Part shown: in pieces, positions 7,473-18,827 of the stretch
Position numbering within the stretch: the stretch's first letter is position 1
Layout: each line of letters begins with the position of its first letter
Source: a virus
Virus record (IMG/VR): IMGVR_UViG_3300036715_001578
Coordinates: 1-64,000 of that record
Reading direction: 5' to 3' (one strand)
Length of the DNA: 64,000 nucleotides
Translations under genes and position numbers: made by a program
Notes under the pieces: model-generated
The model's input: the letters and a program-made list of their open reading frames with translations, nothing else
Databases searched by the model: none
Told to the model about the DNA's origin: nothing

Positions 7473-8102
7473 ATGCAGCATCAAGTTCTGGTACTCGACA
7501 AGTCTTGGACCCCTCACGAGTGGATCACCCGTGACGAGGCCATCATGTGCGAAGCCAAGGGCCAAGTCCTGGATCACCTGGGCGATGACCTCATCACCTA
7601 CCGTGGTGGTGACAACTCCGTGACCAAGTCCCAGTCCGAGCTGATGACGGCTTCGATCATCGTCATCAAGGGCGAGTCAACGGTCAAGCGGGTTAAGCCG
7701 TCTGCGCTGACGAACTCCTCACTGTTCCAGCGTGACCGCTACATGTGCGCCTACTGCTCTGGCTTGTTCACGAGCCATGACCTGACTCGTGACCACATCA
7801 TGCCGGTGTCGAAGGGCGGCCCGGACGTGTGGATGAACGTGGTCACGGCCTGCAAGGCCTGCAACAACCTGAAGGGTGACTTGCTGCCAGGCAAGCCGCT
7901 GCCGCATGGACAGTACAGCCCGCAAGGCACTCGGACCATGGATCCGCTCTACCTGCCGTACATCCCGTGCAAGGCCGAAGCCATGATCATGCGCAACCGC
8001 AACATCCAGGCTGATCAGATGGCCTTCTTGTTGGGACGGATCGCCAACAAGGACCGCAGCCGCGTGTACCGTGACTTGGCTCCGAAGTTCATCACGAGCT
8101 GA
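7473..8102 (+). CDS. HNH endonuclease, 209 aa
   Basis: The N-terminal beta region (VLVLDKSWTPHEWI) and an HNH/McrA-type core: C92-x2-C95, RDHIMP at 106-111, N122, and C127-x2-C130-N131. The paired cysteines bind a structural zinc and the His/Asn residues bind the catalytic metal. Its base composition matches its neighbours and it has its own strong promoter, so it is probably a resident phage nuclease (host DNA breakdown or packaging accessory) and not a recent homing insertion. Confidence 0.85.
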   Translation: MQHQVLVLDKSWTPHEWITRDEAIMCEAKGQVLDHLGDDLITYRGGDNSVTKSQSELMTASIIVIKGESTVKRVKPSALTNSSLFQRDRYMCAYCSGLFTSHDLTRDHIMPVSKGGPDVWMNVVTACKACNNLKGDLLPGKPLPHGQYSPQGTRTMDPLYLPYIPCKAEAMIMRNRNIQADQMAFLLGRIANKDRSRVYRDLAPKFITS

Positions 8103-8115
8103 GTTCAAGCTCGGC

Positions 8116-8121
8116 TAAATA
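8116..8121 (+). promoter_or_regulatory. T4-type late promoter hexamer
   Basis: GGCTAAATA 29 bases before the ATG at 8151, overlapping the start of the hairpin described next. Confidence 0.5.
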
Positions 8122-8148
8122 AGGGTGGCATTTGCCACCCCCTTTATT
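8118..8148 (+). other. hairpin in the leader of the 8151 gene
   Basis: AATAAGGGTGGC, ATTT loop, GCCACCC-CC-TTTATT: a strong stem with a two-base bulge, ending three bases before the ATG at 8151. It may terminate the HNH transcript or shield the late start codon. The weak T run leaves this open. Confidence 0.5.
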
Positions 8149-8150
8149 CT

Positions 8151-8834
8151 ATGCTAGTCGAAGATGTGTTCACCAACCGAGATAGGTCACCCCGCACCGC
8201 TGCGCTAAAGCTTCAGCAGGCGATGGCTGACTACCCGCTTGACCTTCACATCACCCTCGCCCCCACAGAGGTGTACGGCAAGGCTAAGGAAGCCGGTAAG
8301 GCTGGCGTACGGCTCTCCTACACAGACACACACGGCTTAGTCAAAGGCTGGGTTGACCTGCTACCGTCACCGACTCTACCCGAAGAGTATGTCGTCGTGG
8401 CGGCTGCGAGCGGTAGCGTCTTTTCGGGGGAGAAGTTTGACATTCCGAAAATCTTCAAGGTCATGCAGCGAGACTTCATGTTCAAGGTGTTTGAGCAGCA
8501 GCTGAAGTCAGCCTTAGGTGTGACATCAATTGACCAACGGCAAGGCATCGGTGAGGACAACGACTACGTTGCGCACTGGGACATCTTCCCGCCGTTCAAC
8601 CTGCCAGGTCACCAGGTGTATGACCAGTACATCGTCTCTCACATCAACATCAACATCACCACCCATTCGACGGTCCGAGTCTGGATCTATGATGTCAACG
8701 GCGATGACGCCGCAAAAGCCGAAGCAACCGACCTCCATGAAGCGCTAAAAGAGGCCGCGGAGGCGATCAAGCAAATGACGCCTGACGACATGCAAGATCC
8801 AAGCCACAACCTAAAGCCATATAAGCGGTTCTGA
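8151..8834 (+). CDS. LQQ-module protein, 227 aa
   Basis: Near the N-terminus is the helix ALKLQQAMADY followed by alternating beta-like stretches, the pattern that recurs in about a dozen genes of this window. The C-terminus is an acidic helix (EALKEAAEAIKQM). A late-promoter hexamer lies upstream, so late expression and a virion or internal-head location are plausible inferences. No named family is recognised. Confidence 0.65.
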   Translation: MLVEDVFTNRDRSPRTAALKLQQAMADYPLDLHITLAPTEVYGKAKEAGKAGVRLSYTDTHGLVKGWVDLLPSPTLPEEYVVVAAASGSVFSGEKFDIPKIFKVMQRDFMFKVFEQQLKSALGVTSIDQRQGIGEDNDYVAHWDIFPPFNLPGHQVYDQYIVSHININITTHSTVRVWIYDVNGDDAAKAEATDLHEALKEAAEAIKQMTPDDMQDPSHNLKPYKRF

Positions 8835-8838
8835 CAGC

Positions 8839-8844
8839 TAAATA
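8839..8844 (+). promoter_or_regulatory. T4-type late promoter hexamer
   Basis: AGCTAAATA directly after the stop of the 8151 gene, 34 bases before the ATG at 8879. This one leaves room for a leader with GGAGACC. Confidence 0.55.
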
Positions 8845-8878
8845 CTAGGCACGGCAAGCTCGCCGTTCGGAGACCGCC

Positions 8879-9070
8879 ATGTGGGACATCCTCACCTTCA
8901 TCCTTAACTTCCTCACCCACCCGTTCCTGGTGGGCGCATTCGTCGGCGCTGCAGTCGGCGCCTGGTTCTACCGCTGGATGCTGAAGCGTAACCCAGCAAA
9001 GCTCGAGCAGTGGGCTCAAGAAGCGAACGGCCTGGCCGCTCTCGCTAAGTCCAAGTTGGACAACAAGTAA
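8879..9070 (+). CDS. small single-span membrane protein, 63 aa
   Basis: It starts after GGAGACCGCC. The N-terminus is one long hydrophobic helix (FLVGAFVGAAVGAWFYRW inside residues 15-33) followed by a polar helical tail. It could be a holin-like or membrane-anchor peptide, but nothing specific is visible. It is likely driven by the late hexamer at 8839. Confidence 0.6.
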   Translation: MWDILTFILNFLTHPFLVGAFVGAAVGAWFYRWMLKRNPAKLEQWAQEANGLAALAKSKLDNK

Positions 9071-9102
9071 CGGTACAAGTAGGATTGTTACACTTTAGCC
9101 GG

Positions 9103-9131
9103 TTTACAACGACTTCGACTGTAAATACAAT
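9103..9131 (+). promoter_or_regulatory. sigma70-type promoter of the tRNA operon
   Basis: TTTACA at 9103-9108, 17-base spacer, TACAAT at 9126-9131. The expected transcript start is about 9138, only 2-3 bases before the ATG at 9141, so the leader-peptide mRNA should be leaderless or nearly so. Confidence 0.85.
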
Positions 9132-9140
9132 TCTACCATC

Positions 9141-9215
9141 ATGAAGAACACCTCCCTATCATATTTGAGCTCCTCATCGCTTTATAGCGATGGAGGCTTT
9201 TGCATGATCGGGTAA
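9141..9215 (+). CDS. 24-aa leader peptide rich in Ser, Leu and Tyr codons
   Basis: ATG at 9141 to TAA at 9213-9215. Residues 5-16 read SLSYLSSSSLYS: twelve consecutive codons that are only Ser, Leu or Tyr. They use TCC, TCA, AGC and TCG for Ser, CTA, TTG and CTT for Leu and TAT for Tyr, so nearly every tRNA species of the downstream operon is tested. The ORF sits between the operon promoter and an intrinsic terminator. This is the design of a trp- or leu-type attenuation leader; its job would be ribosome stalling, not making a useful peptide. Confidence 0.8.
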   Translation: MKNTSLSYLSSSSLYSDGGFCMIG

Positions 9216-9275
9216 GACAGAACTTCTACCTTCACACCTAGCAAAAGCCTCCGACCGAAAGGTCCGAGGCTTTTT
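9175..9275 (+). promoter_or_regulatory. transcription attenuator controlling the Leu/Ser/Tyr tRNA operon
   Basis: Four segments are visible. Segment 1 CATCGC (9175-9180) pairs with GCGATG (9187-9192). Segment 2 GGAGGCTTTTGC (9192-9203) is perfectly complementary over 12 bp to segment 3 GCAAAAGCCTCC (9241-9252). Segment 3 also pairs with segment 4 GAGGCTTTTT (9266-9275) to make the terminator. A ribosome stalled in the Ser/Leu/Tyr run (9153-9188) covers segment 1 and leaves 2 free to pair with 3 (antitermination). A ribosome reaching the stop codon at 9213 would cover segment 2 and let 3:4 form. The pairing is seen; the switching is inferred by analogy with amino-acid operon attenuators. Confidence 0.8.
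9243..9275 (+). terminator. intrinsic terminator of the attenuator
   Basis: AAAAGCCTC-CGACC-GAAA-GGTC-C-GAGGCTTTTT: a GAAA tetraloop hairpin with one C-C mismatch, ending in five T residues, 28 bases after the leader-peptide stop codon. Confidence 0.85.
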
Positions 9276-9289
9276 CTCATTGGTGTGAC

Positions 9290-9303
9290 GCTCTTTAACA
9301 ATT
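9290..9303 (+). promoter_or_regulatory. rrn-type boxA antitermination site
   Basis: GCTCTTTAACAATT, matching the boxA of bacterial rRNA leaders (TGCTCTTTAACAATT in E. coli), 15 bases before the first tRNA. In rRNA operons boxA RNA binds NusB-NusE and, with SuhB, prevents premature termination of untranslated RNA. The same use is likely for this long tRNA transcript. Confidence 0.75.
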
Positions 9304-9317
9304 CGCGCTTTACTTTT

Positions 9318-9402
9318 GGGGTCGTAGACAGTAATGGCTTCTGCCCGGCCTGTAAACCCGGTGTCCCTGACCAACAAGGTTCGATTCCTTGCGGCCCCAC
9401 CA
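9318..9402 (+). tRNA. tRNA-Tyr(GTA), copy 1
   Basis: Acceptor GGGGTCG/CGGCCCC with encoded ACCA, anticodon loop CTGTAAA (GTA), T arm CAAGG-TTCGATT-CCTTG and an extended variable region, as expected for bacterial tRNA-Tyr. Pair 31-39 is a C-C mismatch. Confidence 0.85.
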
Positions 9403-9410
9403 AAAGTAAT

Positions 9411-9491
9411 GGATCAGCTGGGTGAGACGAGCCCAGGAGCCAGTTTGGGCTCCCGCGAAAGCTACGTAGGTTCGACTCCTATCCTGATCCA
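9411..9491 (+). tRNA. tRNA-like gene, identity not assigned
   Basis: Acceptor GGATCAG/CTGATCC, D arm and T arm (GTAGG-TTCGACT-CCTAT) are present. The anticodon stem GGAGC/GCTCC encloses an 8-base loop CAGTTTGG without U33, or a 6-base loop if the outer C-G pairs. One extra base lies between T stem and acceptor, and the variable region is about 12 bases. It may be a degenerate gene or an unusual tRNA; I could not read an anticodon. Confidence 0.5.
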
Positions 9492-9505
9492 CCCGTAAGA
9501 CCCTT

Positions 9506-9586
9506 GGAGGTATAGACGCCTATGGAGAGCGCCCGGACTGTAACCCCGGTACTTCGGTCATGAAGGTTCGATTCCTTCTACCTCCA
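9506..9586 (+). tRNA. tRNA-Tyr(GTA), copy 2
   Basis: Acceptor GGAGGTA/TACCTCC, anticodon loop CTGTAAC (GTA), T arm GAAGG-TTCGATT-CCTTC and a variable region around TACTTCGGTCAT. After the discriminator A the genome reads CCCA, so the CCA end must be trimmed or added. It differs in sequence from copy 1, so this is not a recent duplication. Confidence 0.85.
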
Positions 9587-9592
9587 CCCACC

Positions 9593-9671
9593 GCCCTGGT
9601 GATGAAATCTTGGTAAACATGTCCGCCTCAGAAGCGGAATTCTGCGGGTTCGAGTCCCGCCTAGGGCACCA
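9593..9671 (+). tRNA. tRNA-Leu(CAG), short variable arm
   Basis: Acceptor GCCCTGG/CTAGGGC with encoded ACCA, anticodon arm TCCGC-CTCAGAA-GCGGA (CAG, reads CUG), T arm GCGGG-TTCGAGT-CCCGC. The D region has the Leu-like AAATCTTGGTAAAC. The variable loop is only 5 bases, unlike normal class II tRNA-Leu. Confidence 0.8.
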
Positions 9672-9674
9672 TAT

Positions 9675-9757
9675 GCACACGTGATGGAATTGGTATACAT
9701 CACAGCCTCAGACACTGTGGCCTTCGGGATTGGGAGTTCAAGTCTCCCCCGTGTGCA
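9675..9757 (+). tRNA. tRNA-Leu(CAG), long variable arm
   Basis: Acceptor GCACACG/CGTGTGC, A73 then CCT, D region GGAATTGGTATAC, anticodon loop CTCAGAC (CAG), long variable arm with CCTTCGGG, T arm GGGAG-TTCAAGT-CTCCC. Second isoacceptor for CUG. Confidence 0.82.
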
Positions 9758-9759
9758 CC

Positions 9760-9765
9760 TAAATA
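9760..9765 (+). promoter_or_regulatory. T4-type late promoter hexamer
   Basis: CCTAAATA three bases beyond the tRNA-Leu end, 6 bases before the ATG of the HNH homing endonuclease at 9772. Confidence 0.5.
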
Positions 9766-9771
9766 GGCAGC

Positions 9772-10281
9772 ATGAAACGCGGACCTAAACCAGCTACACC
9801 AATTTCAACGGCACACATGTGTGCTTACGACTGTGGGCAAACTGCCCTATTCATTAGTGCAAGTGGAAAGTACATTTGCTGCAAGAGCGCTAATCAATGC
9901 TTAGCAAATCGAGCTAGAAGCAGTGCTACATTGAGAGCTGGCTATCAAGCAGGAAGACCTACTGCAGGGCCGATGCGCGAAGATAGAATCAAGGGCGGTT
10001 TAATGGCCGCACGTATTGCAAAAGACAAACGGCAGCACCACTTAACAGATGCACCATGGCACGAAGTTCCTAAGAGCTGCTTCCATGAGCGCGTGTTGTT
10101 AGAGCAAGGCGGCATTTGTAAAGAATGCGGCCTTGGACAAACTTGGAATGGCAAGCCCTTAGTGTTTCAGCTTGATCACGCTAATGGTGATAACAAGGAC
10201 AATCGGCGTGAAAACTTACGCATGATCTGTCCCAACTGTCACACACAAACTCCAACGTGGGGTTTTAAGAAACGTACTTAG
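9772..10281 (+). CDS. HNH homing-type endonuclease inside the tRNA cluster
   Basis: A 169-residue protein with two zinc-binding Cys clusters: an N-terminal CAYDCG region and a C-terminal HNH fold (ICKECG, QLDHANGDNKDN, ICPNCHTQ). The RENLRMICPNCHTQT ending is typical of phage HNH homing enzymes. The gene is visibly AT-richer than its surroundings and separates two tRNA-Leu genes, which points to insertion as a mobile gene. It is preceded by a late-promoter hexamer. Confidence 0.85.
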   Translation: MKRGPKPATPISTAHMCAYDCGQTALFISASGKYICCKSANQCLANRARSSATLRAGYQAGRPTAGPMREDRIKGGLMAARIAKDKRQHHLTDAPWHEVPKSCFHERVLLEQGGICKECGLGQTWNGKPLVFQLDHANGDNKDNRRENLRMICPNCHTQTPTWGFKKRT

Positions 10282-10285
10282 TCAC

Positions 10286-10370
10286 GCGCCCGTGGCGGAA
10301 TGGGTAGACGCGGCAGACTCAAAATCTGTTGCCGCAAGGCGTGTCGGTTCGAGTCCGACCGGGCGCACCA
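10286..10370 (+). tRNA. tRNA-Leu(CAA)
   Basis: Acceptor GCGCCCG/CGGGCGC with ACCA, anticodon arm GCAGA-CTCAAAA-TCTGT (CAA, reads UUG), long variable arm TGCCGCAAGGCGT, T arm GTCGG-TTCGAGT-CCGAC. A classic class II Leu tRNA. Confidence 0.92.
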
Positions 10371-10374
10371 AGTG

Positions 10375-10403
10375 TTTACAAGCGGATCGTGATGATGTAC
10401 AAT
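10375..10403 (+). promoter_or_regulatory. sigma70-type promoter
   Basis: TTTACA, 17-base spacer, TACAAT-CATTCC, then the conserved leader end CGATACTTAGGAG before the ATG at 10440. Confidence 0.88.
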
Positions 10404-10439
10404 CATTCCATTCTGCCAACCGATACTTAGGAGCACAGC

Positions 10440-10697
10440 ATGACCTTCCCGACACAAATTGTAGTCACAAAAGACGGCGTCGAGGTGTTCAACGCGGTCG
10501 CAGGAATTCATCGCGGCCAACCGCTGACCTACCCAGGCTGCGAGGACTCTGCTGCGCGAGGCTTCATCTGCTTTGCAAGCCCACTCATTGGTTGCGCTTA
10601 CCACTACACCAGTTACATCGAAGCCGCTGAGCGCATCGCCCGCATGGGTTACATTACGACCATCACGGAAGCCGGCGCCGACAAGGTGATTCAATGA
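10440..10697 (+). CDS. small protein, 85 aa, function unknown
   Basis: It starts after the conserved promoter and a TTAGGAG ribosome-binding site. The product is mixed alpha/beta with three cysteines (PGCEDSAARGFICFASPLIGC) and no recognisable family. Its stop overlaps the next start (ATGA). It is the first gene of a three- or four-gene early transcript. Confidence 0.7.
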   Translation: MTFPTQIVVTKDGVEVFNAVAGIHRGQPLTYPGCEDSAARGFICFASPLIGCAYHYTSYIEAAERIARMGYITTITEAGADKVIQ

Positions 10698-10984
10698 GCT
10701 GCGTTCACAACTACAAGCCGGTCGAAGGCGTCCGCGCCGTCTACCGCTGCCCAAGCTGCGGCATCTTTGCGCACAAGAGCAAGGCTCGCATCGGTCATGG
10801 CTCAAGCACCGAACTGACACCCTACAAGTGCCACCGCACAGGGTGCGATCAGCCGGTTGTCGTGCTGTACCCGGTTGTCAAGGGACGGAAGCGCTCACAA
10901 CCTAGCTGCACCTTCCACCGCAAGGACCAAGAGATCGCAGAGCTCGGGCCGCTGTCCGACGCCATCCGAAACTTCAAGCGGTGA
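10694..10984 (+). CDS. small zinc-ribbon-like protein, 96 aa
   Basis: Cysteine/histidine pairs suggest two metal sites: CVHNY near the start, CPSCGIFAHK at residues 19-28, then CHRTGCDQP and a final CTFHRK. The rest is basic, so nucleic-acid binding is possible. It overlaps both neighbours by 4 bases. Confidence 0.65.
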   Translation: MSCVHNYKPVEGVRAVYRCPSCGIFAHKSKARIGHGSSTELTPYKCHRTGCDQPVVVLYPVVKGRKRSQPSCTFHRKDQEIAELGPLSDAIRNFKR

Positions 10985-11202
10985 AGCTCGAGTACCTGAC
11001 CGATAAGGCAAGGCACCTCATCTGCTTGCCCTACTCAATCGAGAACCTGCACCTGATGGCGCAGGAGCTCAACATCGCTCGCTGCTGGTTCCACAAGGAC
11101 CACTACGACATTCCCAAGCGCCGCATCGCTGAGATCGAAGCGAAGTGCCGGATCGTGACCAGCCAGGACATCGTCCGGATCGCGAGGCACGGTGGCGACT
11201 AA
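10981..11202 (+). CDS. DUF4031-like phage protein, 73 aa
   Basis: GTG start overlapping the previous TGA. The pattern LxxLAxELNIARCWFHKDHYDIPKRR matches small phage/bacterial DUF4031 proteins, which carry a W-F-x-x-x-H-Y-D signature. The function of the family is unknown. Its TAA stop is part of a late-promoter hexamer for the next gene. Confidence 0.6.
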   Translation: MKLEYLTDKARHLICLPYSIENLHLMAQELNIARCWFHKDHYDIPKRRIAEIEAKCRIVTSQDIVRIARHGGD

Positions 11203-11205
11203 ATA
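11200..11205 (+). promoter_or_regulatory. T4-type late promoter hexamer
   Basis: ACTAAATA whose TAA is also the stop codon of the 10981 gene, 5 bases (CCAGC) before the ATG at 11211. Confidence 0.55.
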
Positions 11206-11210
11206 CCAGC

Positions 11211-11771
11211 ATGAAGTGCTGGCATGAACTGACTATCCCGACAGCGGGCGCCCTAAGACCTGGTTGGACGCTCCCCGCTGACCCCAAGCCCTGGGCTATC
11301 TATGACCCTACGCTGACCGACATCTTCACCGATGATTGGTTACGCTGGATGACCTTGATCGGCCTGCCGGTCTGCCAGGCTATCTTGTTCTACAAGCAGC
11401 CTTGGGCTCGAAGCCCCATCGCGCACATCGACATGAGCACGCCGACTAGGCCGAAAGCATTTGCTTTTAACTGGGTCCTAGGCGGCAAGGGGAGCAAGAT
11501 GCTGTGGTACACAGGGCATGAGGGCAAAGCAGGTGCCGCAAGCCTGACCATGGTCGAGACAGACTACCTCTCATGGCCTAAGACGGAGCTCACGCTTATT
11601 GACAGCCATGAGGTCAAGCAAGAGCTTACGCTCGTGCGCACGGACGTTCCGCACTCCATTGACGTGGAGGCTGAGCCTCGGTGGTGCATTAGCGTAAGGG
11701 TTCCTGACAGCGTCATTGGGGCCTCTTGGAACGAAGCTGTAGCTAAGCTGCAGCACCTCATCATCGGATGA
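11211..11771 (+). CDS. 2OG-Fe(II)/Asp-Asn-hydroxylase-like protein
   Basis: A 186-residue protein with the residue order of a double-stranded beta-helix oxygenase: HID in PIAHIDMS (about residue 74), a beta segment NWVLGGKGSKMLWY, His in TDVPHSIDV (about 150) and Arg in RWCISVRV (about 160). This is the H-x-D...H...R triad used to bind iron and 2-oxoglutarate. The start is chosen at the ATG 5 bases after TAAATA; an upstream in-frame extension would overlap the previous gene. The substrate is unknown. The stop codon lies inside the next tRNA. Confidence 0.6.
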   Translation: MKCWHELTIPTAGALRPGWTLPADPKPWAIYDPTLTDIFTDDWLRWMTLIGLPVCQAILFYKQPWARSPIAHIDMSTPTRPKAFAFNWVLGGKGSKMLWYTGHEGKAGAASLTMVETDYLSWPKTELTLIDSHEVKQELTLVRTDVPHSIDVEAEPRWCISVRVPDSVIGASWNEAVAKLQHLIIG

Positions 11772-11856
11772 TAAACCGGGCGGGCGTCCGGGGCCGCCTT
11801 GAAAGCGGTACGGTTCGGCTAGTACCCGGGCTGGGGTTCGAGTCCTCTGTCATCCG
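11766..11856 (+). tRNA. tRNA-Ser(TGA)
   Basis: Acceptor GGATGAT/GTCATCC, anticodon arm GCCGC-CTTGAAA-GCGGT (TGA, reads UCA), long variable arm, T loop TTCGAGT. The acceptor 5' strand overlaps the stop codon of the preceding gene. After G73 the genome reads CCG. Confidence 0.88.
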
Positions 11857-11860
11857 CCGC

Positions 11861-11893
11861 TTTATATCACCTTGGCCGAAAAGGTAATATAAT
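11861..11893 (+). repeat. 33-base inverted repeat with an embedded -10-like TATAAT
   Basis: TTATATCACCTT and AAGGTAATATAA can pair (11 of 12) around a GGCCGAAA loop, between tRNA-Ser(TGA) and tRNA-Leu(GAG). The right arm contains TATAAT (11888-11893). It may be an RNA-processing hairpin or an internal promoter; a convincing -35 is absent. Confidence 0.55.
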
Positions 11894-11906
11894 GCAAACA
11901 CATCAC

Positions 11907-11989
11907 GCCCTCGTGATAAATGCAAATTGGTACAGCTACTAGCTTGAGATGCTAGATTTTTGCGGGTTCGAGTCCCGCCGAGGGCACCA
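11907..11989 (+). tRNA. tRNA-Leu(GAG), short variable arm
   Basis: Acceptor GCCCTCG/CGAGGGC with ACCA, anticodon arm CTAGC-TTGAGAT-GCTAG (GAG, reads CUC/CUU), variable loop of about 6 bases, T arm GCGGG-TTCGAGT-CCCGC. The D loop is Leu-like (CAAATTGGTAC), but the long variable arm is missing. Confidence 0.8.
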
Positions 11990-11990
11990 A

Positions 11991-12135
11991 GGTGACATGC
12001 TGAAAATTGGTAGACAGCGTCGCGGTCAAGTCAAGACGGAGAGGCCTTATCACCCTCGCATGCCCATGGCAGGAACCGATGGCATAAGCTAGCATGACAG
12101 ACTATGCATCGTAGGTTCGAGTCCTACTGTCACCT
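11991..12135 (+). tRNA. interrupted tRNA-like gene, 145 bases (probably Leu-type)
   Basis: The ends form a perfect acceptor GGTGACA/TGTCACC, the D arm GCTG...CAGC contains the Leu-like AATTGGTAGAC, and the T arm GTAGG-TTCGAGT-CCTAC is perfect. About 60 extra bases lie between D and T arms, including a 9-bp hairpin (ATGCC...GGCAT, 12060-12090 area). A loop GTCAAGT would give anticodon CAA, but its stem is poor. It could be an intron-like insertion, a hypertrophied variable arm or a decayed gene. Confidence 0.5.
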
Positions 12136-12138
12136 TAC

Positions 12139-12227
12139 GGAAGATGAACCGGACAGGGTCCGGACCTGCTTCGAAAGCAGTGGGAGTCACAGAGATGTGG
12201 CTTGGGGTTCAAGTCCTCCGTCTTCCA
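12139..12227 (+). tRNA. tRNA-Ser(CGA)
   Basis: Acceptor GGAAGAT/GTCTTCC, anticodon loop TTCGAAA (CGA, reads UCG) on CCTGC/GCAGT, long variable arm, T loop TTCAAGT. A73 followed by CCG. Confidence 0.88.
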
Positions 12228-12229
12228 CC

Positions 12230-12315
12230 GCCCCGTTGGCGAAATTGGTAGACGCAGCAGGCTTAAACTCTGCCGCCTCGGAAGAGGCGTACCGGTTCGA
12301 GTCCGGTACGGGACA
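12230..12315 (+). tRNA. tRNA-Leu(TAA)
   Basis: Acceptor GCCCCGT/ACGGGAC with one C-A mismatch, D loop GAAATTGGTAGACGC, anticodon arm GCAGG-CTTAAAC-TCTGC (TAA, reads UUA), long variable arm CGCCTCGGAAGAGGCG, T arm ACCGG-TTCGAGT-CCGGT. Confidence 0.9.
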
Positions 12316-12318
12316 CAT

Positions 12319-12413
12319 GGATAGTTAACCGGTTAGGTGACCGGACCTGCTTGGAAAGCAGTGGGATTCTTCGGTAACGAGGGATTGGGTTTCGAGTACT
12401 CAACTATCCGCCA
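12319..12413 (+). tRNA. tRNA-Ser(GGA)
   Basis: Acceptor GGATAGT/ACTATCC, G73 with encoded CCA, anticodon loop TTGGAAA (GGA, reads UCC/UCU), long variable arm. The final A of CCA is the A of the ATG of the next gene. Confidence 0.9.
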
Positions 12414-12811
12414 TGATAGCACACAACGACATTACCGGCGATGCCCTCAAGTCCAAGTCAACTACCGACTCCTACCGTAGCGGGTGGGACCGAATCTTTG
12501 GCAAGAAGGCTGAAGAACAAGAGCCAGCTGCAGAAGCACTTGGCAAGGAAAAGCGGTACATTGTCCGTGTTGGGCTTGACGCAAAGTACTCGCCCGAAAC
12601 CGCCGCAAGGCTAATCAATGCAGAGTACGGCACGGTGCTTCGCGCGTCTGGTCAAAGCTTGCTTATCACGCTGCGTGACGCTCCCGACACGCTCAACCAC
12701 CTGAAGGAGGCTACAGGTTGCGCTGTGTCCGAGGAGGTGCTGTACAAACGGCCTGACGCACGCTTACATGTACGGCTCTACGACGACCCGCTCGAAGATC
12801 ATCACGACTGA
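12413..12811 (+). CDS. conserved small phage protein, 132 aa
   Basis: The first 32 residues (HNDITGDALKSK...YRSGWDRIFGKK) match a short conserved phage/bacterial sequence type ending in WDRIFG; its function is unknown. The rest contains a two-strand repeat-like region. The ATG shares its A with the CCA end of tRNA-Ser(GGA), so the gene must be read from the uncut tRNA transcript, or the mRNA starts there after tRNA 3' processing. Confidence 0.65.
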   Translation: MIAHNDITGDALKSKSTTDSYRSGWDRIFGKKAEEQEPAAEALGKEKRYIVRVGLDAKYSPETAARLINAEYGTVLRASGQSLLITLRDAPDTLNHLKEATGCAVSEEVLYKRPDARLHVRLYDDPLEDHHD

Positions 12812-12828
12812 GTAAAGCGCGAATTCAT

Positions 12829-12924
12829 GGAAGGTTAACCAGGTAGGTGCCTGGACCGGATTGCTAATCCGAGGGTCTCGCTCTCAACAAGCGGGATGGG
12901 TTTCGAGTACTCAGCCTTCCGCCA
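12829..12924 (+). tRNA. tRNA-Ser(GCT)
   Basis: Acceptor GGAAGGT/GCCTTCC, G73 with CCA, anticodon loop TTGCTAA (GCT, reads AGC/AGU), long variable arm GTCTCGCTCTCAACAAGCGGGA, T arm TGGGT-TTCGAGT-ACTCA. It completes the Ser codon set. Confidence 0.9.
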
Positions 12925-12943
12925 TCTTTTTGTCTCTCGAGTG

Positions 12944-12972
12944 TTTACACGGAGGCCGTACTGGTGTACAAT
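12944..12972 (+). promoter_or_regulatory. sigma70-type promoter
   Basis: TTTACA, 17-base spacer, TACAAT-CATCATATCG, then AACAGTGATACTTGGAG before the ATG at 13009. Confidence 0.9.
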
Positions 12973-13008
12973 CATCATATCGGCAACAGTGATACTTGGA
13001 GATGCAAG

Positions 13009-13353
13009 ATGCTCAAATCGCTCAATGATTCCAACCTTTGCGCCCTGCATGCAGGCGCCACGAAGGTCTGGTACTACAAGCCCGCGGTCGCCCGCTACAT
13101 CACCTTCGGCGAGGTCAAGGTTGACCCGAAGAACCTGGAGGCAACGCACGTGCTGTTGGGCTCCATCGCCGAAACCCACCTCGAAGCTATCTTCGGCTCT
13201 CTCCAAGGTGAATGCTGGTCCCCGAACGGCGAAGCCCGCGAGCTAATCACGAGCAAGGAGCTGAACCACACCTCGATGTCCGTCGGTGACGTGATCGAGG
13301 TCAACGGCCGCGCCTACGAGTGCAAGCCGTTTGGCTTTGCGGAGCTGGTATGA
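13009..13353 (+). CDS. small protein, 114 aa, function unknown
   Basis: The start is the ATG following the conserved leader; a longer upstream frame would begin inside the promoter. The product is mixed alpha/beta with no recognised family. It overlaps the next gene by 4 bases and heads a run of small early genes to about 14929. Confidence 0.7.
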   Translation: MLKSLNDSNLCALHAGATKVWYYKPAVARYITFGEVKVDPKNLEATHVLLGSIAETHLEAIFGSLQGECWSPNGEARELITSKELNHTSMSVGDVIEVNGRAYECKPFGFAELV

Positions 13354-13583
13354 CCTACTCATCCATCTGCTGTGCCTCTAACCGGGGCGGCTGCGGCCAC
13401 ACCTTCACGCCGGCGCGCGAGTTCCAAAAAGCTTGCTCCCGTGACTGTGCTTCGCGCATGATCGGCCAAGTCACTGAAGAGCTGCGGCTGGCTCGCCGGC
13501 AGTACTACATCGAGCGACAAGCAACGCTCTCAGATCTGGTCCCTAAGCCGAAGCGCAAGCGCGCTCGTCGGCGCAGGAAGTAG
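13350..13583 (+). CDS. small Cys-rich zinc-finger-like protein, 77 aa
   Basis: Residues 7-33 contain CCASNRGGCGHTF...KACSRDC, a C-C-C-C arrangement typical of a small zinc ribbon, followed by a helix and a strongly basic C-terminal tail (KRKRARRRRK). Nucleic-acid binding is likely; the target is unknown. The start overlaps the previous stop (GTATGA). Confidence 0.65.
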   Translation: MTYSSICCASNRGGCGHTFTPAREFQKACSRDCASRMIGQVTEELRLARRQYYIERQATLSDLVPKPKRKRARRRRK

Positions 13584-13584
13584 C

Positions 13585-14207
13585 ATGAGCAATTCGTCTG
13601 ACATGCGACGAGCTCTCCTCATCATGCAGCAAGCCTGCATCGATGATGGCCATGAGCTGACCTTCAAACGAGTCAAAGCGCGGACAGTCAAGGTCACAGT
13701 GGTCAACGCCGGCGACACCTTGACGATGACCTGGGAGGCCTACAAGACAGGCTTCCTTAGCATCGAGTGCGGTGACCAAAGCCGCATGTATCCAGTCGGG
13801 TACGATCCTGTTCCCACAGCGGCTGCTGAGCTCAGGGCGCTAGACTGGAGCTTCAGGGTCATGCGCGCTCCGACTTTGGAGCTAAAGTCTTTCGTGAGCG
13901 AGCGTAAGGCCAATGCGGCTCCGACCAAGCATGTCATGAACAAGCATGAGCGCAAGCTCATGACGCAGCTGCGGCAAAGTCAGGCAAGACCGAAGCCGAG
14001 GTGCGGCGGGACCCGACCGCCCGCCGGCAGCTGGCCGAGGCTCGCAAGCTTGGCAACAAGCCGGCGGGCGACCACGTGTTCGACGGTCGTAACTGGCTCA
14101 CGCCTCACCAAGCGGCCAGCCGGGTAGTCGAGCGCGCTCGCCTGAAAGGCGTCACCAAGCCGATCTACGCTGATGAGCTTGCCAAGGCTCTGAAGAGGGC
14201 AAAATGA
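13585..14207 (+). pseudogene. LQQ-module protein with an apparent one-base frame disruption
   Basis: The first frame (from ATG 13585) contains ALLIMQQACIDDGHELTF, the LQQ module, and is plausible to about residue 130. It then becomes Arg/Pro/Ser-rich out-of-frame sequence. The continuation (KSGKTEAEVRRDPTARRQL to TAA 14205-14207) is in the -1 frame. One extra A in the CAAAG run near 13975 would fuse them into a 207-residue protein with a basic DNA-binding-like tail. It may be a sequence error or true decay; no canonical slippery heptamer is present. A separate GTG start at 14001 is the alternative. Confidence 0.6.
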
Positions 14208-14445
14208 ACAACACCCACCGCATCACGTACGTTGTTCACGCTCTCGTAGACCTGGTTCAGCTCAAGCTGGAATACTCCATGGACCAGCGCGAGGAGGCCG
14301 AGGCTTTAGCTGGCTCCTTCAAACGTGTCGGCTTCCAGGTCCAACTCGGCCGTGTCATGTCACCTACAGCGGCAACACCGTGCGGGAGGAGCTGGACATT
14401 CAGAGCACTCCCGCGCTCACGCTCACCCAAACAAGGAGCTCATGA
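14204..14445 (+). pseudogene. small protein with an apparent one-base frame disruption
   Basis: From ATG 14204 the frame is plausible for about 50 residues (helical, ending GFQVQLGRV), then degenerates. The -1 frame continues HVTYSGNTVREELDIQST and stops at TGA 14443-14445, overlapping the next ATG in the usual ATGA fashion. One extra C near 14356 would restore an 80-residue protein. The function is unknown. Confidence 0.55.
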
Positions 14446-14657
14446 TGATCTACCAAGCCTGCGGCGCTATCACCGCCTTCTCCCTCCTTGCCATGGGCCT
14501 GATCACCTTCGATGCTCTCGACGGACCTGTGTATGACCGACTCAACACGGCTCTCAAGCGCCTGAACGGGCGCCATGCAGGCATCGCCCTGCTCTTGGGC
14601 TGCGTCGCCCTGCTGAGCTTTTTGATCGCTTTGCTTGCTAAAGGAGCAACACCATGA
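14442..14657 (+). CDS. membrane protein with two transmembrane helices, 71 aa
   Basis: Two adjacent ATGs (14442, 14445) follow AAGGAGCTC. There are two hydrophobic segments (about residues 6-22 and 46-66) separated by a polar loop with a KRLNGR stretch. Its stop overlaps the next start. No family is recognised. Confidence 0.65.
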   Translation: MMIYQACGAITAFSLLAMGLITFDALDGPVYDRLNTALKRLNGRHAGIALLLGCVALLSFLIALLAKGATP

Positions 14658-14929
14658 GCCAAGACTTTGACGAGATCAACCCAGCACCCGAGGTGTCCTA
14701 CATCCCGCGCTGGTCCTTCACCTTGAGCAAGAAGGACGCGCTGCTGGTCCTCAAGGCCCTGGGTGGCCGCTTGACCGATGTCGAGGTCAAGGAGGCCAAG
14801 GAGCTTGGCGACCGCTTGACCGAGCTGCGGCAAGCCACCGGTCAGGACTACCAGAACTCCTTGGACCGTGCGGCACGCGCCGCGGCTGAAGGCTTCACCG
14901 GCAAGCGGAACGTAGCTCCAAAGAGCTGA
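14654..14929 (+). CDS. small protein, 91 aa, function unknown
   Basis: It starts after AAAGGAGCAACACC. Mostly helical and charged, it ends just before the next promoter, so it is probably the last gene of the transcript starting at 12972. Confidence 0.65.
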   Translation: MSQDFDEINPAPEVSYIPRWSFTLSKKDALLVLKALGGRLTDVEVKEAKELGDRLTELRQATGQDYQNSLDRAARAAAEGFTGKRNVAPKS

Positions 14930-14935
14930 AAGCCG

Positions 14936-14965
14936 TTTACATCACGGTCCGAATGGGTGTACAAT
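14936..14965 (+). promoter_or_regulatory. sigma70-type promoter
   Basis: TTTACA, 18-base spacer, TACAAT-CATCTTATCG, then AACAGTGATACTTAAGGAG before the ATG at 15002: nearly the same leader as at 12944. Confidence 0.9.
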
Positions 14966-15001
14966 CATCTTATCGACAACAGTGATACTTAAGGAGACGG
15001 C

Positions 15002-15268
15002 ATGAGCCTCCAATTTGCATTTCTCGAGATCGCCTACGACAATGGCTGCGTCAATAGGTCCATGCCCGAGAGCAAGGTCCTGGACAAGATGTGGGGCGTT
15101 GTACGCCTCAAGTTTGACTCGAAGGTCATCGCTGACGTCGACAAGGAGCTCTCTGCCATGCCTCGGCACGCTTTGGAGGAGCTTTGCTCTGGCGAGGAGT
15201 CCGAGCAACCGAGCGTGTCGCAAAACGCGCGCGACATCCTGGAACACGCTTTCAACCACATGGTGTGA
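15002..15268 (+). CDS. small protein, 88 aa, function unknown
   Basis: It starts after the conserved TTAAGGAGACGGC leader. Mixed alpha/beta with an acidic C-terminal half. It is followed after 2 bases by a small membrane protein. Confidence 0.65.
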   Translation: MSLQFAFLEIAYDNGCVNRSMPESKVLDKMWGVVRLKFDSKVIADVDKELSAMPRHALEELCSGEESEQPSVSQNARDILEHAFNHMV

Positions 15269-15270
15269 TC

Positions 15271-15387
15271 ATGAGCCTCCTGTCCCTCTACCTCTGCCTC
15301 AGCTTCGTGATGTTCGGCTTCCTCATGGTGATCTGGAACCGCAGCGACCCGTTCAACCTCATCCTCAAGGTAGCCTTCGGGCGTTGA
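15271..15387 (+). CDS. single-span membrane peptide, 38 aa
   Basis: ATG at 15271 to TGA at 15385-15387. One hydrophobic helix (LYLCLSFVMFGFLMVIW) is followed by a short polar tail. A toxin-like or host-membrane-modifying small phage protein is possible, but nothing specific is visible. Confidence 0.5.
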   Translation: MSLLSLYLCLSFVMFGFLMVIWNRSDPFNLILKVAFGR

Positions 15388-15443
15388 CCGGGCTCGCCGC
15401 CTTCGTCGTCCTCACCCACTTCGGCTACATCATCAAAGCCTGA
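15384..15443 (+). CDS. possible 19-aa membrane peptide
   Basis: TTG start overlapping the previous TGA, encoding a short hydrophobic peptide (LAAFVVLTHFGYII). It is supported only by the overlap and hydrophobicity, and may not be translated. Confidence 0.25.
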   Translation: MTGLAAFVVLTHFGYIIKA

Positions 15444-15453
15444 CAACTTTTTG

Positions 15454-15482
15454 TTTACAACTTGCTTGGCAGGTGTTACTAT
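15454..15482 (+). promoter_or_regulatory. sigma70-type promoter
   Basis: TTTACA, 17-base spacer, TACTAT, followed by a leader with AGGAAAGGAAA before the ATG at 15511. Confidence 0.85.
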
Positions 15483-15510
15483 CTAGACCACAATAGGAAA
15501 GGAAATCCCG

Positions 15511-17592
15511 ATGACCCACGTGCTGAACTTCAACGTCTTCAAGAAGGCGATCCAGAAGCGCTTCGCGGAGATGACGGCCAACAACGCCGCTCTGTTCCGC
15601 GTCAGCATCCCGAAGGATGAGACCGGTGCCAAGAGCGACCTGCTCTGGAACACCTACTTGGGCGCCTTCCCGGAAGGCACCAACCCGATGTACCGTGAGC
15701 GCACGGAGCACGACTGTACCTGCTGCCGCCACTTCATCCGTGACGTTGGCGACGTCGTGACGATCAACGCCGACGGCTCGCTCACGTCCATCTGGGACAT
15801 CGACATCGCCGCCAAGGAGCCGGCTTACCAAACTGTTGCCAACGCGCTGTCCGCGACCGTCAAGGCTCACGCCATCGGCGACGTGTTCCTGCACTACCTG
15901 GACAAGGCCGGCACCGACCGCAGCTTCGAGCAGCTGGTCAACGGCGGTCAGCAAGCCTGGGATCACTTCTTCGTCAACATCCCGCGCGCTTACGTGGTGG
16001 GCAAGGACCATGTCGCGACCAAGCTGAGCGAAGACCGCTCGGCCCGTGACTCCCTGCACCGCAGCCTGACCGACCTGAGCATCGAGAACATCGACGCGGT
16101 GCTGGAGCTGATCACGCAGGGCTCGATCTACCGCGGTGACCAGTTCAAGGGCGCCGTCACCTCCTTCCGTGAGCTGAAGGCCGCTTTCGACAAGCTGTCG
16201 GCTGACCGACAAGCGCTCTTCGCCTGGACCAAGTTCAAGGCAGCAGGCGCACTGTGCGGCTTCCGCACTTCGGTCATCGGCACGTTGGTCGAGGACTTGG
16301 CCATGAAGGAGCTGGATGACGCCGTCAAGATCTACGAGTCCAAGACCGCCCCGCAGAACTACAAGCGTCCGACGGCGCTGGTTACCAAGGGCATGATCGA
16401 GAAGGCCAAGGGCGAGCTGCAGAAGCTGGGCTTGGTCTCGGCCCTGGAACGCCGCTTCGCAGTCCTGACGGACATCACGGTCAACAACGTGTTGTTCGCC
16501 AACCGCGACGCCAAGGCGACCATGACCGGCGACGTGTTCGATGACCTGGTGGGTGACGCCAAGGTCTCGACCAGGTCCTTCGACAAGATCGAGGAGGTGG
16601 GCATCGAGAAGTTCCTGAAGGACATCCTGCCGACGGCCAAGTCGATCGAGCTGCTGTTGGAGAACAAGCACACCAACCGCCTGGTCAGCCTGATCGCTCC
16701 AACCGACCCGACGGCTGGCAAGCTGTTTGCTTGGGACAACTCCTTCAGCTGGTCCTACACCGGCGACGTGACGGACTCGATCAAGGAACGTGTTAAGAGC
16801 GCCGGCGGCCAAGTGGTCGGCGAGCTGTGCTGCCGCCTGGCCTGGGACTACACCGATGACCTGGATTTCCACATGGTCGAGCCGGGCGGCTCCGAGATCT
16901 ACTACGGCAGCTACCGGCTGAAGGGTGGCCGTAGCCTGTCTCCGTGCGGTGGCGAGCTGGACCTGGACGCCAACGGCGTTGACGGCATGAAGAACGAGCC
17001 GTGCGAGAACATCTACTACGCCAACCGCAACCGCATGAAAGAAGGCGTCTACGAGCTGTTCATCAACAACTTCGTCAAGCGGTCGACGGACGGCAAGGGC
17101 TTCGGCGTCGACATCGAGTTCGACGGCGTGACCACGACGATCTACTACGATCGCGCGATCCCGTCTCGGTCGAACCTGACCGTGGCGAAGATCAAGTACT
17201 CGAAGAAGGACGGCTTCACGATCATCGAGTCGCTGCCGAGCACGAGCACGACGAAGGATGTCTGGGGCCTGAAGACCCAGACCTTCCAGCAAGTCAACGT
17301 CGTGATGCTGTCACCGAACCACTGGGATGACCAGAAGGGCGCCGGCAACAAGCACTACTTCTTCATGCTGCAAGGCTGTGCCAATGACGGCACCGCCCGT
17401 GGCTTCTACAACGAGTTCCTGACCCCGGAGCTGAACAAGCACCGCAAGGTCCTGGAGATGGTCGGCTCCAAGCTGAAGGTCGCCAAGGCGTCCGAACAGC
17501 TGTCGGGCCTGGGCTTCTCGTCCACGGTACGCGACACCGTGGTCGTGCGTGTCAAGGGCGCTCTCAACCGCGTCATCCGAGTCGCATTCTGA
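15511..17592 (+). CDS. large protein with C-terminal YfaP/DUF2135-like beta domain
   Basis: A 693-residue protein. Residues 1-430 are mainly helical and unrecognised, with a CTCCRHF cysteine cluster near residue 70. From about 440 a beta domain has the DUF2135 pattern: LAWDYTDDLDFHMVEPGG, then GGELDLDAN, CENIYYANR and a glycine-rich strand. Codon use is highly biased and the promoter strong, so abundant early expression is likely. It is followed by the 17625 gene in one transcript. The function is unknown. Confidence 0.7.
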   Translation: MTHVLNFNVFKKAIQKRFAEMTANNAALFRVSIPKDETGAKSDLLWNTYLGAFPEGTNPMYRERTEHDCTCCRHFIRDVGDVVTINADGSLTSIWDIDIAAKEPAYQTVANALSATVKAHAIGDVFLHYLDKAGTDRSFEQLVNGGQQAWDHFFVNIPRAYVVGKDHVATKLSEDRSARDSLHRSLTDLSIENIDAVLELITQGSIYRGDQFKGAVTSFRELKAAFDKLSADRQALFAWTKFKAAGALCGFRTSVIGTLVEDLAMKELDDAVKIYESKTAPQNYKRPTALVTKGMIEKAKGELQKLGLVSALERRFAVLTDITVNNVLFANRDAKATMTGDVFDDLVGDAKVSTRSFDKIEEVGIEKFLKDILPTAKSIELLLENKHTNRLVSLIAPTDPTAGKLFAWDNSFSWSYTGDVTDSIKERVKSAGGQVVGELCCRLAWDYTDDLDFHMVEPGGSEIYYGSYRLKGGRSLSPCGGELDLDANGVDGMKNEPCENIYYANRNRMKEGVYELFINNFVKRSTDGKGFGVDIEFDGVTTTIYYDRAIPSRSNLTVAKIKYSKKDGFTIIESLPSTSTTKDVWGLKTQTFQQVNVVMLSPNHWDDQKGAGNKHYFFMLQGCANDGTARGFYNEFLTPELNKHRKVLEMVGSKLKVAKASEQLSGLGFSSTVRDTVVVRVKGALNRVIRVAF

Positions 17593-17624
17593 TCCACCCG
17601 TGCAACACTGAAAGGAAGCACATC

Positions 17625-18047
17625 ATGACAACCAACATCGACAACCTGCTGCTGCAGGCCTCCCGCCAGAAGTGGCGCTTCGACACGCCGAAGGGCGCGC
17701 TGGCCATCGAGGACCTGTGGGACCTGCCGCTGACCTCGGGCACCGGCAAGGCCAACCTGGACGACATCGCCAAGTCTCTGTTCCGCAAGGCCAAGGCCGA
17801 CAATGACGAGCCGACCAGCTTCGTCACGGCCAGCGCCAAGCCGGCTGACGTCGTCACGCCGCTGAAGCTCGAGGTCGTCAAGTACGTCATCGACGTCATC
17901 TCGACCGAACGCACGGCCGCCGCCAACGCCGCCGCTCGCGCCGCTCAGCGCCAGCTGGTGATGAAGGCCATCGACGACAAGAAGGCCAACGCCATCAACG
18001 ACATGTCCGTCGAGGACCTGCAGGCCCTGCTGGAATCGCTGAAGTAA
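17625..18047 (+). CDS. helical protein, 140 aa, partner of the 15511 protein
   Basis: It starts after AAAGGAAGCACATC, 32 bases behind the 15511 gene and with the same strong codon bias. The C-terminal half is a long Ala-rich helix (ERTAAANAAARAAQRQ) ending in a short Leu-rich segment, which suggests oligomerisation. No family is recognised. Co-expression suggests the two products act together. Confidence 0.65.
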   Translation: MTTNIDNLLLQASRQKWRFDTPKGALAIEDLWDLPLTSGTGKANLDDIAKSLFRKAKADNDEPTSFVTASAKPADVVTPLKLEVVKYVIDVISTERTAAANAAARAAQRQLVMKAIDDKKANAINDMSVEDLQALLESLK

Positions 18048-18067
18048 GCTTCGGCCTGGATGATGTG

Positions 18068-18095
18068 TTTACAAGGCTTGGCTTTGTGATACAAT
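18068..18095 (+). promoter_or_regulatory. sigma70-type promoter
   Basis: TTTACA, 16-base spacer, TACAAT-CATCCTACCG ahead of the ATG at 18128. Confidence 0.85.
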
Positions 18096-18127
18096 CATCC
18101 TACCGAATCCCAAACAGCGAGACTGCC

Positions 18128-18427
18128 ATGCAATACCCAAGCAACCTGTTCAACTTCAGCAAGCACTTGGGTATGCTGGTAACACGTGCTGGCGTCCTGC
18201 AGCACGCCGCTCGAGGCCTCCCGATCTTCGAGCCTGTCAATGACCGCACCGCCGATGAAGGCATGCACGTCATCTCGACAGGCTCGGGCGAGGAGGCCTC
18301 GTTCTATGTCAGCCATGTTGACAAGAAGCATGACGGCACCGTCAAGAGCTGGCTGCTGAAGCCCACGCTCGACACCGTGATCCGCCTGCCACAGCTCAGC
18401 AAGGCCAAGATTCTGGTGGTCGCATGA
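18128..18427 (+). CDS. small protein, 99 aa, function unknown
   Basis: The start is chosen downstream of the promoter; the longer upstream frame runs through it. Mixed alpha/beta, no family recognised. It overlaps the next gene by 4 bases (ATGA). Confidence 0.65.
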   Translation: MQYPSNLFNFSKHLGMLVTRAGVLQHAARGLPIFEPVNDRTADEGMHVISTGSGEEASFYVSHVDKKHDGTVKSWLLKPTLDTVIRLPQLSKAKILVVA

Positions 18428-18685: not shown

Positions 18686-18827
18686 CCAGCCGATGGAGGC
18701 TATCATGTAGCGCAAGCTATGCATATGATCACACAATAGAGAACTCATCTTTTATACTGTCCAGGAAAGATGGTTGGGCTTACGTATATGGCGAAAGCCT
18801 GGGCTTGACACAGGACTTTCCAAAAGC
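18686..18827 (+). other. non-coding interval before tRNA-Leu(TAG)
   Basis: It contains short hairpins (TAGC-GCAA-GCTA near 18713; GAAAG...CTTTC near 18793-18820), a TATACT sequence near 18755 and TTGACA at 18805. No convincing complete promoter or ORF is seen. Confidence 0.4.

Follow-up and report, generated by a model that had tools for sequence, protein, structure and literature searches.

The object of this analysis is a 64,000-nucleotide stretch of phage DNA (the window), the first 64 kb of the 113,079-base virus record IMGVR_UViG_3300036715_001578, which may be a fragment. We conclude that its region 9103-9317 is probably a ribosome-mediated transcription attenuator of the phage's own transfer RNA (tRNA) genes; translation of the leader, termination and the response are what we infer. 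The original prediction, made from the sequence alone, had described the region as a leader-peptide attenuator which senses the Ser, Leu and Tyr tRNAs and controls a Leu/Ser/Tyr tRNA operon. In its favour are the mutually exclusive RNA structures, the register of the stall positions, a repeated promoter, a matching set of tRNAs and a folding behaviour that none of 200 shuffles showed. What did not stand in full is control over the Ser tRNAs and over the Leu tRNA with anticodon UAG.

Results

The leader transcript is predicted to fold as a classic attenuator, in which an antiterminator and a terminator exclude each other and a protector hairpin serves the untranslated state (Table 1). The 12-bp perfect pairing of 9192-9203 (segment 2) with 9241-9252 (segment 3), which had been read from the sequence, is present, and nine bases of segment 3 also serve as the terminator's 5' arm. 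The intrinsic terminator claimed at 9243-9275 is supported by folding, although a simple terminator scan does not list it. The free leader RNA, which forms the 1:2 hairpin together with the terminator, has a folding z of -5.4, and equal stability was reached in none of 200 shuffles. Among the terminator-like places on the two strands (8 + 9, overlapping calls of one site being counted apart), this is the sole case with an exact alternative upstream pairing of at least 8 nt.

The effect of translation was modelled by removing the RNA covered by the ribosome and folding the remainder, which gives an equilibrium prediction. When any of codons 2-13 occupied the P site, the antiterminator reached 0.58-1.00 and the terminator 0.00-0.43; with the P site anywhere from codon 14 to codon 25 (the stop) the terminator stood at 1.00. 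It stood at 0.86 when the RNA was free of ribosomes or the ribosome sat on the start codon. Folding with and without a ribosome block thus bears out the expected switch, the terminator being on when the leader is unblocked or its translation finished and off when the ribosome is stalled in most of the run of Ser, Leu and Tyr codons. The permissive A-site codons are 3-14, ten of which belong to this run (codons 5-16), and the modelled stall positions that free segment 2 therefore largely coincide with the regulatory codons. Shifting the ribosome footprint by -4 to +4 nt displaced the borders of the stall window by merely one or two codons. When 9138-9240 was shuffled and joined to the real terminator, the lower stem of the terminator did not fall below 0.45 at any ribosome position in any of 200 shuffles, whereas in the real leader it lies below this value across eleven consecutive 3-nt steps.

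The 12-codon run is the longest of its kind in the six frames of the 64 kb, where the runner-up has 8 codons, and the longest in 100 dinucleotide shuffles of the window had 9. Ser, Leu and Tyr make up 18.5% of the codons in 20 open reading frames (ORFs) of the phage, and from the phage's own codon use one expects about 4e-4 such runs over the six frames of 113 kb. It is the unbroken run that is exceptional and not the overall Ser/Leu/Tyr fraction of the ORF, which at 12/24 is not the highest among the window's 864 short ORFs. The distinct codons TCC, TCA, TCG, AGC, CTA, TTG, CTT and TAT match the phage anticodons GGA, UGA, CGA, GCU, UAG, CAA, GAG and GUA, so that all eight have a cognate phage tRNA. 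Both Tyr codons are TAT, the minor codon (18%), and CTG (45%) is absent from the three Leu codons, which is unremarkable (chance 0.17).

The promoter assigned to 9103-9131 is confirmed as a motif and belongs to a class, TTTACA-N16..18-TACAAT, with nine exact copies in the window (sites 5552 to 47233) against a mean expectation of 0.01; at least nine copies were found in none of 100 shuffles. The predicted 24-codon ORF, with its twelve successive Ser/Leu/Tyr codons at residues 5-16, is likewise found, at 9141-9215. Behind the eight other promoter copies the first ATG lies 26-82 nt beyond the -10 box, exactly 36 nt in five of them, and seven of the eight are followed by a clear stretch resembling a Shine-Dalgarno sequence. 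Because the leader has 9 nt between the -10 box and the ATG, and no Shine-Dalgarno sequence, its message is probably leaderless or nearly so, and initiation at 9141 would need the leaderless mode. The trp leader RNA of Sinorhizobium meliloti also begins at its own AUG (PMC7298713).

All twelve readable tRNAs of the 113-kb record are for Leu, Ser or Tyr. ARAGORN lists eight tRNAs and a transfer-messenger RNA (tmRNA) in the window, and Rfam together with a cloverleaf parse adds those for Ser (UGA), Leu (GAG), Ser (CGA) and Ser (GGA); the other 49 kb of the record gave no tRNA by ARAGORN and no Rfam match. The phage thus covers all five Leu isoacceptors (CAG twice, CAA, GAG, UAA, UAG), all four of Ser (UGA, CGA, GGA, GCU) and Tyr (GUA twice). 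In the tRNA-bearing loci used for comparison these amino acids account for 86 of 364 tRNAs. The unit nearest the leader, 9318-10370, carries in order a Tyr tRNA, a tRNA-like gene, a second Tyr tRNA, two Leu (CAG) tRNAs, an HNH endonuclease gene and a Leu (CAA) tRNA. It seems to need read-through, since a promoter scan found none between the terminator and 9318. On the same strand, a terminator scan from 9276 to 14.6 kb gave a single weak site at 12927, where the Ser (GCU) tRNA itself ends. Read-through might thus extend to the Ser genes as well, although these need not depend on it.

Table 1. Features of the leader region, the tRNA genes and the tmRNA (positions in the window)
Feature	Positions	Strand	Basis or remark
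Weaker promoter match	9057-9085		upstream of leader; promoter scan
Promoter TTTACA-17-TACAAT	9103-9131	+	motif; putative transcription start ~9138
Leader ORF, 24 codons, peptide MKNTSLSYLSSSSLYSDGGFCMIG	9141-9215	+	nearly leaderless, without Shine-Dalgarno sequence
Putative sensing codons TCC CTA TCA TAT TTG AGC TCC TCA TCG CTT TAT AGC	9153-9188	+	12 codons, 8 distinct; leader codons 5-16
1:2 hairpin (protector)	9154-9212	+	folding; occupies 7 of the 12 segment-2 nucleotides in free RNA
Segment 2, antiterminator 5' arm	9192-9203	+	within leader ORF, just ahead of stop codon
Segment 3, antiterminator 3' arm	9241-9252	+	9243-9251 doubles as terminator 5' arm
Predicted intrinsic terminator	9243-9275	+	stem 9243-9251/9266-9274, apical hairpin 9253-9264, U-tract 9271-9275
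tRNA-Tyr (GUA)	9318-9402	+	ARAGORN, cloverleaf parse
tRNA-like gene, 6- or 8-nt anticodon loop	9411-9493	+	acceptor and T stems, no normal anticodon arm (by eye); decoding unreadable
tRNA-Tyr (GUA), second copy	9505-9590	+	ARAGORN, cloverleaf parse
tRNA-Leu (CAG), short, class I-like variable loop of 5 nt	9593-9671	+	ARAGORN, cloverleaf parse
tRNA-Leu (CAG)	9674-9759	+	ARAGORN, cloverleaf parse
HNH (homing-type) endonuclease gene within tRNA unit	9772-10281	+	PHROG E 9e-22, PADLOC; Pfam HNH matches under curated cut-off
tRNA-Leu (CAA)	10286-10370	+	ARAGORN, cloverleaf parse
Internal promoter, TTTACA-N16..18-TACAAT class	10375-10403	+	precedes stretch carrying Ser tRNAs
tRNA-Ser (UGA)	11766-11856	+	Rfam, cloverleaf parse; unlisted by ARAGORN
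tRNA-Leu (GAG), short, class I-like variable loop of 6 nt	11907-11989	+	unlisted by ARAGORN
tRNA-like gene, 144 nt with long insert	11991-12134		acceptor and T stems, no readable anticodon arm
tRNA-Ser (CGA)	12139-12227	+	Rfam, cloverleaf parse; unlisted by ARAGORN
tRNA-Leu (UAA)	12230-12316	+	ARAGORN, cloverleaf parse
tRNA-Ser (GGA)	12319-12413	+	cloverleaf parse; unlisted by ARAGORN
tRNA-Ser (GCU)	12829-12924	+	ARAGORN, cloverleaf parse
tRNA-Leu (UAG)	18828-18914	+	ARAGORN, cloverleaf parse; outside operon, completes class II set
tmRNA, phage-encoded, betaproteobacterial type	21867-22214		tag ANDSVYAMAA; permuted tmRNA model matched too

The two tRNA-like genes may be decoys, degenerate genes or genes which bear an intron. 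In both tRNA-Tyr genes the closing pair of the anticodon loop is mismatched, as C-C in one and A-C in the other. Two ideas about the tRNAs were dropped. RNAfold had suggested that the Ser tRNAs resemble the selenocysteine (Sec) tRNA, with 8/4 arms and a D stem of 6 bp, which would have made them allo-tRNAs; an ordinary 7/5 parse, in which the D stem has 4 bp and the D loop contains GG, fits as well (by eye), and the Rfam search for tRNA-Sec matches 14 of 14 control genomes, above the cut-off in five. Nor are the Leu tRNAs with short variable loops a novel means of evasion, since one occurs in Synechococcus phage BUCT-ZZ01 (by eye) and the tRNA array of Achromobacter anxifer described below has a Leu (CAG) tRNA with the identical ATTCT loop.

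The one relative of the leader that was found is the contig IMGVR_UViG_3300037010_002261, whose 7,941-base locus is identical to the window. Searches with rIIB, rIIA and the terminase returned this identical contig alone, or nothing, while a terminase profile matched at least 80 contigs; the best among the matches listed, at 58 and 53%, were two short contigs without tRNA. For a survey of other arrays, 40 records (36 of the terminase-profile contigs and four named phages) were checked for tRNAs, and nine had them. Twenty stretches from these nine were combined with array regions of eight more phages and with four further loci (L135, L141, L189 and L196), the latter from nine tRNA-bearing ones among at least 120 promoter-pattern loci. 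In total 32 loci and the window gave 79 starts of tRNA arrays, some of which lie where a stretch begins or ends; the 1.2 kb upstream of the starts held 73 terminator-like sites. A profile in which the terminator goes from on to off and on again as the ribosome advances was seen at two of the 79 starts, namely at 9243-9275 of the window and, weakly, in Sinorhizobium phage Phosso. Among 412 terminator-like sites in 231 loci there were three, one of which (window 14618) ends with the terminator open. The threshold of this rule (0.45) was fixed after the window site was known and after a preset rule had missed it. A first metric, which averaged the whole terminator hairpin, had also missed the site because the apical hairpin persists.

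Discussion

If the region works as an attenuator, transcription would start at about 9138 and a ribosome would begin the leader at the almost bare AUG at 9141. With charged Ser, Leu and Tyr tRNAs in plenty, the ribosome would reach the stop codon at 9213 and cover segment 2, and the terminator would form before the tRNA genes, leaving a leader RNA of about 138 nt. With no translation, the 1:2 hairpin would hide segment 2 and transcription would stop too. When a sensed tRNA is depleted, the ribosome would stall in the run, segments 2 and 3 would pair, the terminator would be blocked and transcription would read through into the genes of the replacement tRNAs.

Which shortage would such a leader report? 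Besides Sec, Leu, Ser and Tyr are the bacterial amino acids whose tRNAs have a long variable arm (PMC2265525). As the three share this tRNA structure and no biosynthetic pathway, and as the phage encodes readable tRNAs for these amino acids only, we take the signal to be a loss of class II tRNAs, most likely through a host nuclease directed against this class. It is possible, though it falls somewhat short of probable, that the leader is a damage sensor which reads the class II isoacceptors singly, so that a full set of replacements is turned on once a host nuclease attacks the long variable arm. In the same tentative reading the leader would be one instance of a wider, so far undescribed kind of device that heads mobile tRNA arrays and whose leader peptide corresponds to the tRNAs encoded behind it: Ser, Leu and Tyr here, and nearly all amino acids before the broad arrays of Phosso and A. 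anxifer. The question of why phages carry tRNAs is an old one, and in this case the switch would read the very tRNAs that its operon supplies. If this is true, these genes answer to the loss of tRNAs and not to codon bias, the arrangement points to a so far unknown bacterial defence directed against class II tRNAs as a class, and the leader would provide a direct reporter for it. To our knowledge no damage-sensing counter-defence of such a kind is known in phages. Among the matches listed from an open-licence PMC library, which covers neither subscription journals nor most preprints, we found no attenuator of phage tRNA genes.

Several observations weigh against the attenuator, or against its wider interpretation. 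The registers do not agree completely: the last two codons of the run, 15 and 16, lie outside the permissive window, which in turn takes in two codons for other amino acids, 3 (Asn) and 4 (Thr). As long as the nascent end is at 9262, every ribosome position from the start codon to codon 15 favours the antiterminator, so that the completed terminator has to displace it if the ribosome has not travelled further. The leader ORF lacks a Shine-Dalgarno sequence, and the leader does not sample the Leu codons CUG and UUA, for which the phage has anticodons CAG and UAA. A second promoter precedes the Ser tRNAs (11766-12924), so that their control by the leader is at most indirect, and the Leu (UAG) tRNA is separate, 9.5 kb away. 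Control over the whole set is therefore at best partly direct, the genes directly downstream being Tyr and Leu tRNAs. The record is possibly incomplete, and further tRNAs may be missing from the set. A broad host nuclease directed against class II tRNAs would explain the whole arrangement; that there is one we infer from the arrangement itself. Phage DNA and protein searches gave no diverged relative of the leader in which covariation or conservation could be seen. Finally, most of the surveyed tRNA arrays have no such device, and the folding rules do not all single it out. A stricter rule, set beforehand, demanded a lower stem below 0.30 for four steps of 6 nt; the window site failed it with a run of three steps, while 25 of 412 terminators open and close with the upstream edge, none of them above 0.7 when unblocked. 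A looser rule classed as switch-like 9 of the 45 ORF-terminator pairs that have a tRNA behind them, two of these nine sharing one terminator in the A. anxifer locus, and 16 of the 209 pairs that have none, a weak enrichment.

Could the leader simply respond to amino-acid starvation, that is, to low aminoacylation of the Leu, Ser or Tyr tRNAs, the extra tRNAs merely raising the capacity for translation? Classic attenuators do read charging (PMC1183508), and a stalled ribosome cannot distinguish an uncharged tRNA from a missing one. We nevertheless consider this unlikely. No pathway is common to Leu, Ser and Tyr, whereas the class II tRNA structure joins them; moreover, the genes downstream are tRNAs with no recognisable biosynthesis genes among them, and a lack of amino acids is not cured by more tRNA.

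Slightly less likely again is that the terminator just closes the upstream block of genes or sets a fixed low level of tRNAs, the codon run and the pairing being due to chance or related to a small peptide. Short ORFs and terminators abound in phage genomes, and the switch-like folding found by the two rules above at sites elsewhere would fit this explanation. Yet the first tRNAs appear to depend on read-through from this terminator, and the run and the pairing, each of which beats all shuffles, also agree in register.

We think it very improbable that the terminated leader RNA or its peptide has its function in trans, like rnTrpL and peTrpL of Sinorhizobium. In S. meliloti a leader transcript that begins with its AUG and is terminated by attenuation does act in trans as a small RNA (PMC7298713); such a role would be compatible with attenuation but would leave the match between the leader codons and the downstream tRNA genes unexplained. 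The least plausible alternative, a general gauge of translation capacity that responds to slow decoding of minor codons, with the tRNA match as a by-product, accords with CTA, CTT, TTG and TAT in the run, all minor in the phage, but not with AGC and TCG, the commonest Ser codons, nor with the lack of minor codons of other amino acids.

How does the proposed attenuator compare with known systems? In the trp, his, leu and ilv operons a ribosome that translates a short leader peptide decides between alternative hairpins. The window's leader is like these attenuators (PMC1183508, PMC11857589) in its short ORF with regulatory codons, its 1:2, 2:3 and 3:4 alternatives and its terminator before the operon. 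It differs from them in being encoded by a phage, in reading three amino acids which share a tRNA class, in reading several isoacceptors each by its own codon, and in having tRNA genes and not biosynthesis as its output. With the S. meliloti trpL leader (PMC7298713) it shares a transcript start at or next to the leader AUG, while the sensed amino acid and the output are different. A comparison can also be made with the systems in which tRNA-Tyr is attacked. Septu EcB88 (PtuAB) and retron-Eco7 cut tRNA-Tyr in its variable loop, and phages counter them with tRNA-Tyr which is expressed from a strong promoter or amplified beside a homing endonuclease gene (PMC13096335, PMC11555353). Our phage has two tRNA-Tyr genes, a tRNA of the type that variable-loop nucleases cut. 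In contrast to the counter-tRNAs directed at retron-Eco7 and PtuAB, it encodes all class II isoacceptors, and their expression is predicted to be conditional. In phage T6 (PMC11555353, PMC13096335) a homing endonuclease gene stands beside the tRNA genes, and our phage, too, has an HNH gene in its tRNA unit.

In T-box riboswitches the state of a tRNA also decides whether a terminator forms, with direct binding of the uncharged tRNA and no leader ORF. The window has a leader ORF, and no T-box family was among the 22 Rfam matches listed for 8500-22500 (E up to 5). For the Schlafen nucleases, the type II targets are the tRNAs for Ser and Leu, a class that overlaps with the one sensed by the leader. 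These nucleases are mammalian, and it is in mammals that they cut type II tRNAs (PMC13245857).

Some mobile tRNA arrays may be headed by devices with this layout. In phage Phosso (PV764938, 419754-419986; 1754-1986 of locus L118) an annotated small ORF, XYS97753.1, is followed by a terminator with a weak alternative pairing, 386 nt ahead of the first tRNA of a large array. Its on-off-on profile is weaker than that of the window: at stall codons 8, 9 and 31-33 the antiterminator reaches 0.93-0.96 while the terminator still stands at 0.47-0.49, a minimum that was reached in none of 100 shuffles. Searches with the Phosso leader returned only itself. The second case came from a scan of a collection of bacterial and archaeal genomes with a Ser-tRNA pattern taken from our phage, which matched in one place, an array of 32 tRNAs in an 8-kb locus of Achromobacter anxifer (L252, 674-7859; NZ_CAHLAR010000005.1, contig 8001-16000). 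The head of this array has a sigma-70-like promoter and a Shine-Dalgarno-like stretch (by eye), a 58-codon ORF with all twenty amino acids and an 11-base perfect pairing of L252:899-909 with 959-969, the second arm of which is shared by a strong terminator (957-964/979-986). In the model this terminator is near 0 with a ribosome upstream and about 0.8 once the ribosome has passed; no protector state was found in the 146 nt tested. ORFs with 18-20 types of amino acid are common at comparable length, so a leader with all of them is not remarkable by itself. Since the locus was found by way of a tRNA and not by a search for attenuators, we regard it as a useful independent lead, from a single sequence, to a bacterial tRNA array that may be under attenuator control. 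No T4-type terminase was found in the A. anxifer genome.

A search for nearly leaderless ORFs followed by a terminator gave 36 matches in 238 loci, five of them with a tRNA within 3 kb. Three candidates for analogous leaders were rejected. The one at L141:801-989 (IMGVR_UViG_3300037805_000216) has a promoter of the TTTACA/TACAAT class and a nearly leaderless 28-codon ORF; its strong terminator, which lies 840 nt ahead of a broad tRNA array, stays at 1.00 in all modelled states. The other two (G017 and G008) likewise combine a short ORF with a terminator and, further on, a tRNA array. In G017 the two helices largely coexist. In G008 some stall positions lower the terminator, but at many it coexists with the alternative helix; it passes the looser rules and is not counted as an analogue. 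Near the array heads we also noted, by eye, tRNA-like sequences CTAAGCTAGGG...GAGGGCAACAAG in L141:1470-1540, with close variants in L111:2160-2265.

As regards the phage itself, it encodes rIIA, rIIB and a T4-type terminase, whose highest identity to that of any named phage is 39.7% (Xanthomonas phage XacN1). The ORF at 53538-54044 ends with VPEPSAYLLLVAGLGAIAFVRRR, which we take to be a PEP-CTERM-like sorting signal; such an ending is unusual in a phage and hints at a betaproteobacterial host.

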